The notes beneath the pieces are model-generated. The model was not told where the DNA came from and did no database searches. It worked only from the letters and a program-made list of their open reading frames with translations. A program made the translations under genes and the position numbers. Shown piece by piece: positions 17,355 to 30,282 of a stretch of DNA of 64,000 nucleotides (within the stretch, counting starts at the first letter, position 1; each line of letters opens with the position of its first letter). Origin of the DNA: Candidatus Poribacteria bacterium (GTDB lineage: Bacteria; Poribacteria; WGA-4E; WGA-3G); the NCBI GenBank assembly GCA_021295735.1, contig JAGWBU010000002.1, positions 5,094 to 69,093 on the forward strand. Reading direction: 5' to 3'.

Positions 17355-18134
17355 TTACCATGTATCCCGCACGCTCACACCTTCATCTTCAAGGTAAGTT
17401 TTGATGCTTTCAATCGTGAACTCACCATAGTGTGTGATAGAGGCAACAATTGCCGCATCAGCATTGCTTTCGACAAAAACATCGCGTAGATGTTGTGGAT
17501 TTCCCGCACCACCAGAAGCAATAACAGGTACTGGCACAAGATCAGCGATAGCACCTGTTAACTCCAATTCATACCCCGCCTTTGTGCCATCAGCATCAAT
17601 GCTATTGACGACAATTTCACCTGCACCCAAATCCACACCGCGAATCGACCATTCCAATGCATCCCATCCAACAGGTTTCCGTCCGCCATCAATATAGATT
17701 TCATAGCCGCTGGGAATCTGTTCGCTTTTTGGAACTTTTTTTACCTGCATGCTCAACACAACACACTGACTACCGAATGCACGCGCCCCTTCAGAAATAA
17801 TATCGGGGTTTCGCACTGCACCAGAATCTATACTGACCTTTTCTGCACCAGCGAGTAGGACACGCCGCATATCCTCAAGTGTGCGCAACCCGCCGCCAAC
17901 AGAAAACGGGATAAAGATTTCTGCAGCAACGGCAGAGACAACATCTATCATAATATCGCGCCGTTCATTGCTTGCCGTAATGTCGTAAAAGACGAGTTCG
18001 TCGGCACCACCTTCATAATAAAACCGCGCCATTTCAACTGGGTCGCCAACATCAACATTGCCTTTAAAAGCAATACCTTTGGTAACTTTTCCTGCGCGCA
18101 CGTCTAAACAAGGTATTATCCGTTTTGTTAACAT
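17355..18134 (-). CDS. hisF: Imidazole glycerol phosphate synthase cyclase subunit, altered catalytic site
   Basis: 259 residues from ATG 18134 (AGAGGG upstream; a 14-codon extension is rejected). It is a (beta/alpha)8 barrel that closes the imidazole ring in histidine synthesis using ammonia from HisH. D11 is kept ([15 protein letters not shown]) and both phosphate-binding regions are good ([15 protein letters not shown]). At position 130, where T. maritima HisF has its second catalytic Asp, this protein has Gln (VVLSMQVKK). At 103 it has Asp where Asn is usual (VSIDSGAV). HisH is not adjacent. It may be a working variant or a paralogue with another role. Confidence 0.85.
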
Positions 18135-18221
18135 ATTTCCCTCTTTTTCAAATTCTACTATGTGAGTAAGTCTCATGGAAAGTGTAAAGGTCTGGGAGTT
18201 AGGTATTACCCTTAAAATAAA

Positions 18222-19319
18222 TCATGGAGACGTATACTTTTCATTTTCGGCAGATGTCTCAATACCATATATTGCTTTCATTTCTCCCCATTGCGTAGGC
18301 AATTTTCCCTGCGGAGATACAGCCAACGCACCCTCTACCCAATGCGGTCGAATGTCGTGATACCGATGACGTGTCAAGCGTCTGAGTTTACCCGTTGTAA
18401 TCTCATACCGATAGATGTCATGATACTGCTTCTCACGAGGCACTTCAAGTAACCCAGCCGAAAAGAGAAATGCCTGCCCATGATCCATCCAACACAGTCC
18501 AGAGCCAACCCACTCTCCGCCCATCTTCTCATTCACATCAATTTCCTTTTTCGCACCGTTGGGACGCATCACCACAAACCGTTTTATCGGAAAATCTCCT
18601 TGTAGTCCGCCTATTGATTTAAGGAACAGTATCCGCTGCCCATCTGATGACCATCGAGGATAAACTCTGAACGATAGCTGCGGTCCAGGGTCTTGATCCG
18701 GCAGAAGAGGGCGCTGGTTTGTTCCATCTGCTGACATAACCCAGATGTTTGTATCGGCTATGCCGCCCCCTCTTAATATGTGTTTTTTATAAAGAATTTC
18801 TTTGCCATCAGGAGACCAATCGGGAGAGGTTGAACTACTCTCTTCTTCGATACCTGTCAACTGTTTTACGGCCCGACTTTCCAATTCCATCACAAAAATA
18901 TTGCTACGTTTACTATTGCGGTTGCTCTTAAACGCCAAGTAACGTCCATCCGGGGACCAGGTAGGATCTCCATTTCTATCACCATCACCGTTATGTGTGA
19001 GTTGTTGTTGATCGGTACCGTCTGCATTCATAATAAATAGTTGGTATTTTTGTATATCTTTCTCAAGGTTTCTTTCAAAAGCAATTTGGCTGCCATCTGG
19101 CGACCAATGTGGCCTCCCTTCCCAGAACTGACTGCCTGTCAATCTGCGGATACCACTACCGTTATCGTTCATCACATAAATACTGGCATTGTAGTCAAAG
19201 ACTATTTTAGCCCCAGCGATACTCTGAACAGATAACACAATGAGACAGCAAAGTATTAAACCAATTATCACTTGTAGATTAAGAGACGTGTTCACAGGTT
19301 TTAGATGATTATGCATCAT
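18222..19319 (-). CDS. Exported TolB-like (PD40) beta-propeller protein
   Basis: 365 residues. A signal segment (about 14-36) is followed by repeated PD40 units with the motif W-S-P-D-G: RPHWSPDGSQIAF, DPTWSPDGRYLAF, SPDWSPDGKEILY, YPRWSSDGQRILF. This matches the propeller of TolB. The N-terminal TolB domain and the tol-pal neighbours are absent, so it is not the Tol system protein. It probably acts in the periplasm as a binding scaffold. The ribosome site AAGGAG precedes the ATGATG start. Confidence 0.8.
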   Translation of the reverse strand: MMHNHLKPVNTSLNLQVIIGLILCCLIVLSVQSIAGAKIVFDYNASIYVMNDNGSGIRRLTGSQFWEGRPHWSPDGSQIAFERNLEKDIQKYQLFIMNADGTDQQQLTHNGDGDRNGDPTWSPDGRYLAFKSNRNSKRSNIFVMELESRAVKQLTGIEEESSSTSPDWSPDGKEILYKKHILRGGGIADTNIWVMSADGTNQRPLLPDQDPGPQLSFRVYPRWSSDGQRILFLKSIGGLQGDFPIKRFVVMRPNGAKKEIDVNEKMGGEWVGSGLCWMDHGQAFLFSAGLLEVPREKQYHDIYRYEITTGKLRRLTRHRYHDIRPHWVEGALAVSPQGKLPTQWGEMKAIYGIETSAENEKYTSP

Positions 19320-19453
19320 GGTTTACTCCTTAAATGTCGTGGTTAGAAACTGTTCCTATGGTCGTATATGGCAAGTGCATGGTATGCCGCACTTGCCACA
19401 GAAGGAATGCGGATGTTTGATGGCAAGGACATCCGCATTCAGCTTGAAAAGGT

Positions 19454-27802: not shown

Positions 27803-28549
27803 GTGCGGCTTGAAAAATATATTGCTACTTCAGGTATTGCCTCTCGGCGCGCAGTAAAGCGAGCCATTCGTGAGGGGCACATCACTGTGAATGGAGCAAA
27901 AATTCTCATCCCCGGACATCCGATTGATGTGGAAAAAGACATTATTGAGTTTGAAGGGAAACAGGTTCAACCACTAACAGAACATATCTATCTGATATTG
28001 AATAAGCCTGCAGGTTATTTAACGACTCGTCGTGATGAACGTGGTCGTCCTACCGTGATGGATCTTTTAACAGACCTACCGAAATCTATTTATCCAGTGG
28101 GACGTTTAGATTTAGAAACAGAAGGGCTTCTGCTATTCACAAACGATGGAAATTTCGCTAATCGGTTGATGCATCCAAGTCATGAGATTGAAAAGACCTA
28201 TCTTGCATGGGTAAATGGCATTCCAAGTAAACGTGCACTTGAACGCTTACGTAACGGTATTGCCATCCCCGGTGGGAAAACTGCCCCAGCGAAGATCAAA
28301 CAACTAAATGTAAAAACTGTCCCTCCGTCATCTGCTAATAGCAAAACACATAAAAATGAGGTAGTTGCAAAATTTAGGGTGATAATCCACGAAGGGAAAA
28401 AACGGCAGGTACGTCTGATGTTTAAAGCGGTGGGACATCGCGTTATCCGCTTGAAGCGGACACGTATAGGGGCGTTAGGGTTAGGCAATCTCCCGCAGGG
28501 GCAATATCGATTTCTGACCCCTACGGAAGTTGCTCAATTGCAAGCTTAA
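27803..28549 (+). CDS. RsuA/RluB-family pseudouridine synthase
   Basis: 248 residues with a GTG start (AGGATAAACA upstream). The N-terminal S4 domain is RLEKYIATSGIASRRAVKRA, followed by GHITVNGAKI. The catalytic domain has YLILNKPAGYLTT and GRLDLETEGLLLFTNDG, whose Asp attacks the uracil ring. RVIIHEGKKRQVRLMFKAVG is the late family motif. It isomerises a uridine in rRNA (RluB-like in 23S or RsuA-like in 16S). It overlaps the convergent thioredoxin-TPR gene by 4 bases at the 3' end. Confidence 0.92.
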   Translation: MRLEKYIATSGIASRRAVKRAIREGHITVNGAKILIPGHPIDVEKDIIEFEGKQVQPLTEHIYLILNKPAGYLTTRRDERGRPTVMDLLTDLPKSIYPVGRLDLETEGLLLFTNDGNFANRLMHPSHEIEKTYLAWVNGIPSKRALERLRNGIAIPGGKTAPAKIKQLNVKTVPPSSANSKTHKNEVVAKFRVIIHEGKKRQVRLMFKAVGHRVIRLKRTRIGALGLGNLPQGQYRFLTPTEVAQLQA

Positions 28550-29574
28550 TTATCGGTTTTATTTTCTGCTTCCGCAGCCAATTCCTTGACGCGTTTTAGG
28601 TTCGCTTCAGCGTTAAGTTTCATCCGTTCATCGGTTGTGTGATTCGCTAATTTCTCAAGCACTTCAATTGATTTGTCGTACTGTTTTGAAATTGAATAGA
28701 TTACACCGAGATAAAGTTGAGCCTGTTCATTTTCATCTGTTTTTGGATACGTGTCAATGATTTTTTGGAAGTGCATCTCAGCTATTTTTGCTTTTTCAGC
28801 CGCTACATCTTCCGCTTTGCCTTGAATTTGATTGCCATAAGCGACTCCGAGTTGTATGTGTAAAGCAGGAAGAAGTCCCGAAGTGTTTTTAGTATCATTT
28901 TTAATGACCTTTTTGCTGAACGGGAGCGCTTTTTCTAATTGTTTCTGTCCCAAATAGGCTAAAGCGATTCCATTGTTCAACTTGACATCATCAGGTATTT
29001 TTTTGCTAATCAAAAGCGCCTTTTCCAATTGTTCCCGTTTTATATAAAGAATAGCGATTTCGCGGTTTAGGGTGACATCATCAGGCATCTTCTTCAATTT
29101 TGCCAACGTTTCTTGGAATTTCGTCTCTTTTTTTAGTGCTTCTTCCATCACAGGTGTAAATTGAGCAGGTGGAGCATATCCCACCTTCTTAGTGATGACA
29201 CCACCATCCGGACCGATGAACAAAATTGTCGGAACACCTGTAATTCCATATTTCCTACGGGTTTCCTCGTTTATGGGCCGTTCCGTATCATTTGGATTTA
29301 CCTTGACAGTAATGAACTTCTCAGAGAGGGCAACGACGTTTGCGTCAGTGAATGTGTCGGCATCCAGCCGATCGCAAGCAGGTCATGTGTTTGTATAGAA
29401 ATCCATCATAATTGGTTTGCCGGTATCAACGGCTTGTTTCGTAGCTTCCTCAATAGACATTCCCCATTGGACTTTTTCGCCTTCTGCAAGGACAGGAATA
29501 GATACTGTCATTAGCAGAAGGACGGTGAGTCCTGCTACATAGGGAGAGTAGCGGTAAAAAACAGAATTAAACAT
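28546..29574 (-). CDS. Exported thioredoxin-fold/TPR protein, probable selenoprotein (UxxC)
   Basis: 342 residues if the TGA at 29383-29385 is read through. Residues 1-30 are a signal peptide or anchor (VAGLTVLLLMTVSIPVLAEG). The next domain reads KPIMMDFYTNT, then TGA, then PACDRLDADTF. In thioredoxin_7/DUF255-like proteins this spot is the first Cys of CxxC, so TGA sits exactly there with the second Cys kept (C67). The frame stays open for the 53 codons to the thioredoxin cis-Pro segment YGITGVPTILFIGPDGG and on to the end. Residues about 135-340 form TPR-like helical repeats. A hairpin with its loop 17-21 bases after TGA could be a bacterial SECIS. The alternative is a pseudogene split by a nonsense mutation or error. 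Confidence 0.72.
29357..29371 (-). promoter_or_regulatory. SECIS-like hairpin downstream of in-frame TGA
   Basis: On the coding (minus) strand TCGGC, loop TGGAT, GCCGA begins 12 bases after the TGA, with the loop at +17 to +21. Bacterial SECIS elements lie in the coding region with the apical loop roughly 16-37 bases after UGA, and G and U bases in the loop are usual. An outer TTGCG/CGCAA pairing is possible but leaves a large bulge. Confidence 0.5.
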
Positions 29575-30282
29575 TAATTCTCTCCTTTAGGTAAACGATA
29601 AATTAGGTGTTTCCTATATTGTCATGTTGAGCAGATAACCCGCACAACCGTTTATCCTTTTAGTGATTGTAAAATAATACCACATTCCACGAAGTATGTC
29701 CAGTTAAAACAGATTCTTGAAGGTGTGTAACCAATTCTGCATAGTTTAGTTCATGTCGGGCTTCGCTCTACCCATAGGCGTCAATTTAGCGATGAGTTTC
29801 TTGTGGGAGGGAAACCTTGAAAGCCCGATTGAACGAGATTTAAGCAGAAAATCCAAATCAACGCTGAATGCGCCAAATCAAGAAATCAACGGTATGAATC
29901 ATGGCGAATGCCAAAAGCGCATTCGTCTTTAGTCATTCACCGGGTTGCTGCCAAATCAACGCTGAATGCGCGTGTAGGCATTCATCCAAATCAACGCTGA
30001 ATGCGCGTGTAAGCATTCATCCAAATCAACGCAGCATGCGCGTATGGCATGCTGCGGGGTTGAAAACCCCTCCCACAAGAGGATATATCCTTAAGTTTAC
30101 ACCCGTCAAATGCCAAAAGCGCATTTGACGTTGATTTGGCTGAATGCCCGCTAAATGCCACAGGCGCATTTGGCGTTGATTCAGGCGTTCATAGCGTTGA
30201 TTTATGGGTTTCGCTGCGCTCTACCCGACCTACAATACTACCGCGCTATTGGCATGACAAACGTGACACTAAGAAGTTTTGT
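29575..30282. repeat. Repeat-filled intergenic region with tandem 35-base hairpin units
   Basis: This 708-base gap has no gene. 29883-29912 is the reverse complement of 32634-32663. Three tandem units follow at 29951-29985, 29986-30020 and 30021-30057, each starting CCAAATCAACG and carrying a hairpin. Further hairpins occur at 30107-30140 and 30150-30185 (AAATGCC-GGCATTT type). 30197-30228 (GCGTTGATTTATGGG then TTTCGCTGCGCTCTACCC) matches 52552-52589 with the last part inverted. Open frames here are repeat-derived. Confidence 0.75.
29951..30057. repeat. Three tandem hairpin units with compensated stem changes
   Basis: Units 1 and 2 (35 bases each) share CCAAATCAACGC then TGAATGC, GCGTGTA and GGCATTCA (AGCATTCA in unit 2). 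Unit 3 has GCAGCATGC, GCGTATG and GCATGCTGC: both arms changed together so the stem is kept, now 9 bp. This is not a CRISPR array, because there are no unique spacers. Confidence 0.75.

Follow-up and report, generated by a model that had tools for sequence, protein, structure and literature searches.

A 2026 inventory lists about 119 families of prokaryotic selenoproteins, among them a family of thiol:disulfide interchange proteins that belongs to PF13098 and carries a UxxC motif (PMC13188914). For the bacterial SECIS (bSECIS) elements that accompany such genes, the same work gives an upper stem of 4-16 bp, a loop of 3-9 nt with a G in the first two loop positions, a distance of 16-37 nt from the UGA and an MFE of -7.5 or lower (PMC13188914). 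CnoX acts together with GroEL and DnaK, and it carries Cys or Ser instead of selenocysteine (Sec) (PMC6282202). In this work, we describe a gene from the Poribacteria whose product combines a UxxC thioredoxin domain with TPR repeats and compare it with these systems.

The gene lies in a window of 64,000 nucleotides that comes from a metagenome-assembled genome (MAG) of 5.07 Mb that is 93.5% complete and 5.6% contaminated. We estimate the probability that the gene encodes a selenoprotein, with its in-frame TGA decoded as Sec, at about 80%. This reading is based on the conserved position of the TGA, the frozen codons of the SECIS element and the purifying selection past the TGA. A preliminary description had placed the frame at 28546-29574 without giving a strand; the coordinates hold, and the strand is minus, as the plus frame is full of stops. 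Read from 29574 to 28546 with TGA as U, the frame gives 342 residues followed by TAA and contains exactly one TGA. This TGA does stand, as had been proposed, at the first Cys position of a thioredoxin CxxC motif, and the second Cys (residue 67) is retained (DFYTNT-U-PACDRLDADTF). The features of the locus are as follows.

28546..29574, minus strand: complete gene of the putative selenoprotein, ATG at 29574 to TAA at 28548-28546 (translation, dN/dS)
29582..29586, minus strand: Shine-Dalgarno sequence AGGAG, 7 nt 5' of the ATG (sequence)
29482..29574, minus strand: probable signal peptide, residues 1-31, hydrophobic, ...SIPVLA/EGE (sequence inspection)
29149..29460, minus strand: thioredoxin-like domain, residues 39-142 (Pfam, AlphaFold2, Foldseek)
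29383..29385, minus strand: TGA read as selenocysteine, residue 64, position one of UxxC (translation, relatives, model)
29374..29376, minus strand: codon of the resolving Cys, residue 67, in UPAC here and UGWC in the family consensus (alignments)
29357..29371, minus strand: SECIS hairpin UCGGC-UGGAU-GCCGA (geometry, synonymous-site conservation)
28558..29097, minus strand: TPR region, residues about 160-339 (Pfam TPR_19, model)

The Shine-Dalgarno sequence ahead of the ATG places the start of translation upstream of the TGA. The neighbouring genes (rnpA, yidC, jag, mnmE and an rluB-like gene) are housekeeping genes and are silent on function. The rluB-like gene is convergent, its stop codon overlapping that of the selenoprotein gene in TTAA (28546-28549), and this order is kept in relatives. 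One further frame in the window can be read through a TGA (17358-19322), and it looks like two adjacent genes.

Homologues were recovered with an alignment-based search of contigs, a single-sequence search of contigs having given none. Of the 85 Poribacteria genomes, 73 contain a relative, and almost all matches that extend over the site show a single TGA at this position. The exceptions are fragments that begin only beyond it, together with a Cys paralogue from one genome (G047); a few distant members also show their terminal stop. Beyond the phylum, the same motif with TGA is found in MAGs that carry the labels Neomarinimicrobiota, FCB group and Gammaproteobacteria, and several of these members share the plan of a signal, a thioredoxin domain and TPR repeats. 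Homologues from the Omnitrophota, Acidobacteria, Planctomycetota and others have TGC or TGT at the Sec column, and a Planctomycetota Cys homologue (L156) appears to keep the thioredoxin-TPR plan. Counted over the retrieved stretches, which form a redundant set, the codon at this column is TGA in 122 and TGC or TGT in 16; the column holds TGA or Cys, and random stops are not seen there. The column of Cys67 is invariant in two family alignments. Computed against relatives where this was possible, dN/dS was 0.09-0.27, with values of about 0.2 for the part ahead of the TGA, for the later part of the thioredoxin domain and for the TPR part. Purifying selection acts on both sides of the TGA.

These comparisons bear on whether the locus is a pseudogene, a sequencing error or a pair of genes, the first for a short peptide that is exported and the second for a TPR protein. 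A plain ORF caller does list the downstream 225-aa piece alone, beginning at the TTG at 29223. The comparative data nevertheless refute such a reading, to which we give practically no weight: the same TGA is present in dozens of separate assemblies, the thioredoxin domain spans it with selection on both sides, and the upstream ATG has a strong Shine-Dalgarno sequence.

Two further observations concern paralogues. A second TGA-containing thioredoxin-TPR gene is present elsewhere in several genomes of genus g1 (L100, L112, L176 and others). A 799-aa frame in another genome (L189, G047:C6:51500-57000) joins a sigma-70-like domain, a Cys-type thioredoxin-TPR relative and TolB/WD40-like repeats in that order, an odd fusion of sigma, thioredoxin, TPR and propeller parts whose domains were judged by eye.

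The hairpin TCGGC-TGGAT-GCCGA, reported earlier with its loop 17-21 nt past the TGA, is present. Its geometry agrees with that published for bSECIS elements, with a 5 bp stem, a 5-nt loop (UGGAU, G in position 2) and a spacing of 16 nt from the UGA to the loop. The MFE is -7.4 when the 15-nt hairpin core is folded by itself and -10.3 when 40 nt are folded with the core held in place. When the peptide is re-coded synonymously, 1.9% of the versions contain a hairpin as good as this one. The stretch CGGCTGGATGCC arises in 0.18% of re-codings with the codon usage of the window, a probability of 0.0018 per gene that must not be multiplied as though the 65 distinct TGA sequences were independent, as they share ancestry. 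This single-gene test is modest, and it is the comparative codon evidence that is decisive. The codons for R-L-D-A in the SECIS are CGG-CTG-GAY-GCC in 65/65 distinct TGA sequences. Synonymous entropy is zero at the R, L and A codons, and the D codon is GAT in 62 sequences and GAC in 3. At other well-conserved positions the mean is 1.6 bits for 4-fold codons and 2.1 bits for 6-fold codons, and the surrounding synonymous sites of the same genes have had time to vary; one Val codon near the start of the N-terminus is also invariant among the 65. The Cys homologues, which are without the SECIS hairpin, have other codons and mostly other residues at this place.

Folding of the whole downstream stretch with RNAalifold gave no consensus fold for a set that included non-TGA stretches of the second domain, and unconstrained folding of single sequences often favours other structures. 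The hairpin stem hardly varies among relatives, which leaves covariation uninformative. The case for the SECIS therefore rests on geometry and synonymous-site conservation. The SECIS pattern without mismatch occurs once only in the genome. In the selD gene (L021), the TGA is followed by a hairpin (GCTC-CGGGC-GAGC, loop at 17-21) that matches the SECIS of the window gene in its spacing (16 nt) and loop size (5 nt).

The conserved open frame beyond the TGA would also be expected if the UGA were read through or recoded as another amino acid, such as Trp or Cys, with no selenium involved. TGA was held in the preliminary description to be a normal stop elsewhere in the window (pdxJ) and not generally recoded, and the genus bears this out, as TGA terminates a member of the family (L025). 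Non-selenium recoding is made very improbable by this ordinary use of TGA, by the Cys that homologues substitute within a CxxC motif, by the hairpin frozen at synonymous sites in the place of a SECIS and by the presence of the Sec machinery.

The Sec genes were sought in the same genome. The genes selA, selB and selD are present (608, 344 and 372 bits, all over curated cut-offs), and selC is there in part, its 5' end missing. The frames of selA, selB and selD are open, and selD carries an in-frame TGA of its own, which is common for SelD. The only tRNA-Sec candidate in the assembly has the anticodon UCA and is located on contig C204, about 110 bases beyond the end of selB, a placement shared with relatives. 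It scores 38.2 bits, below Rfam's 47, and ARAGORN makes no call; the low score is due to the replacement of the first ~17 nt by unrelated sequence. The missing part comprises the 5' acceptor strand and the start of the D arm (L017:4020-4205, G000:C204). The ~95 nt of unrelated sequence replace these ~17 nt together with adjacent intergenic bases, and part of them resembles a dispersed short repeat. Neither an intact selC nor a second copy of its 5' end was found in the assembly, and a stretch of contig C35 that resembles the missing end lies in no tRNA and matches by chance. In the relatives, intact tRNA-Sec copies over the cut-off are present in 54/60 genomes. Within the window, 35-nt repeats in direct and inverted orientation (CCAAATCAACGCTGAATGCGC...) are clustered at 29853-30202 between the selenoprotein gene and mnmE, and the short repeats at the selC break are perhaps of the same kind.

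The selC break is either a misassembly at a repeat or recent damage in the strain, and an intact copy may be missing or misassembled. If the damage is real, selC would have been truncated by a repeat-associated insertion or deletion and Sec decoding recently lost in this organism, with the TGA now terminating here and read as Sec in all relatives. The repeat-like replacement at selC with no intact copy found speaks for such a loss, as do the active-site flanks of the window gene, which depart from the family consensus (TNTUPACDRL vs DWUGWCKRL). We consider it quite unlikely, given that selA, selB and selD remain open with the TGA of selD retained, that the window gene is still under purifying selection, and that most relatives have the tRNA; assembly errors at repeats are, moreover, common in MAGs. 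The conclusion that the family consists of selenoproteins is independent of the state of selC, while decoding in the organism of the window depends on it. The sequence itself shows a TGA at the catalytic position, a constrained SECIS, purifying selection that continues beyond the TGA, the greater part of the Sec machinery and the domain architecture.

The thioredoxin domain matches PF13098 at 58.7 bits (Pfam gathering cut-off 27 bits) and PF13899 at 49.2 bits, and TPR_19 matches above its cut-off at 32.6 bits. Both the thioredoxin and TPR domains are found in 22/22 aligned relatives, with TPR_19 itself in 22/22. The AlphaFold2 model has a mean pLDDT of 90.6 and an all-helical TPR part; at the N-terminus it predicts a helix at residues 10-24 followed by a low-confidence linker. 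The nucleophile of thioredoxin folds sits just ahead of the active-site helix, and in the model residue 64 directly precedes helix 65-74, at the start of the active-site helix. The protein is probably exported, judging by inspection of its signal-peptide-like N-terminus; the relatives outside the Poribacteria have lipoprotein-like signals there. In Foldseek searches, the thioredoxin domain matches DsbD-gamma with TM (target) values of 0.70-0.78 and 20-25% identity. DsbD-gamma and DsbH are reductants. One DsbD is encoded in the genome of the window.

Taken together, the protein would consist of a signal peptide, a DsbD-gamma-like thioredoxin domain with UxxC and then TPR repeats. SelB would deliver the Sec-tRNA at the UGA, guided by the hairpin, whose first bases lie about a dozen nucleotides 3' of the codon, and this delivery would allow translation to go on past the UGA with no stop. 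The Sec/Cys pair would then most likely serve in the cell envelope as a thiol-disulfide (selenenylsulfide) reductase, in which Sec attacks a client disulfide or an oxidised cysteine and Cys67 resolves the mixed bond. A membrane reductant, e.g., the DsbD of the same genome, could re-reduce the pair, and the TPR part may bind clients or partners. We infer the Sec insertion, export, reducing direction, partner and client binding in this scheme.

The step of a DsbD-fed envelope reductase is favoured, at somewhat better than even odds, because the closest structures of the domain are DsbD-gamma and DsbH, the genome has a DsbD, and the likeness to YbbN is one of plan only. It is possible, if rather doubtful, that the selenoprotein functions instead as an oxidase or isomerase or as a holdase of the chaperedoxin type. 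The first Foldseek match is E. coli YbbN/CnoX (3qou), a thioredoxin-TPR chaperedoxin (PMC6282202), and isomerase-like thioredoxin folds are also among the structural matches. The match to YbbN is architectural only, however, with an rmsd of 19.8 over 300 columns and a TM of 0.26-0.31, and the DsbD-gamma/DsbH-like fold of the thioredoxin domain belongs to families of reductants. One form of this idea, an exported Sec chaperedoxin whose TPR part holds damaged envelope proteins while the Sec/Cys pair repairs oxidised cysteines, is an unlikely one in our judgement; if true, such a protein would have been retained across most of the Poribacteria, a phylum with many sponge symbionts.

The family is conserved phylum-wide in the Poribacteria and is uncatalogued in the 2026 inventory. 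A paper on Poribacteria selenoproteins was not found in the open-access literature, and unindexed or subscription work may exist. Standard gene calling splits these genes at the TGA, so that the redox centre is lost, and throughout the Poribacteria the annotation would be that of a plain TPR protein. The family supplies a strongly constrained SECIS that is common to several phyla. An enrichment of SelA and SelB has been reported for sponge symbionts (PMC5649159), and the family is a concrete candidate reason for it.

With respect to known systems, no NCBIfam model passed its cut-off. The best match is to TsoB (NF045694, rhodanese/DsbD fusion-like), whose C-terminal DsbD-like part aligns with residues 15-145 (E 1.1e-21); the match scores 76.6 bits where the cut-off is 805, it is confined to the last quarter of the model, and a TPR region follows here. 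The Trx7/PDZ (seleno)protein (NF041199) shares the Thioredoxin_7-like N-terminal part and differs in its score (29 bits against 300), in its PDZ domain, for which there is no match here and TPR in its place, and in its motif, which is CxxU there and UxxC here. CnoX/YbbN likewise begins with a thioredoxin fold and continues with TPR repeats, which is a likeness of plan and not membership; it is cytosolic with no signal peptide, whereas the window protein has a signal-peptide-like N-terminus (by inspection), Sec and a DsbD-gamma-like domain. DsbD-gamma and DsbH have the same domain fold and active-site position but are Cys-based, and DsbD-gamma belongs to a membrane protein that has no TPR. The catalogued PF13098 UxxC selenoprotein family shares the Pfam family (the best Pfam match of the window protein) and the motif; no TPR fusion is listed for it, and the inventory mentions neither TPR nor Poribacteria (PMC13188914). 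The earlier proposal of a new and unusual selenoprotein architecture therefore stands for the exported thioredoxin-TPR family, which is unlisted, and not for the UxxC active-site chemistry, which was already catalogued under PF13098. With its exported thioredoxin-TPR architecture, the putative selenoprotein family described here extends the catalogue of about 119 such families in prokaryotes.
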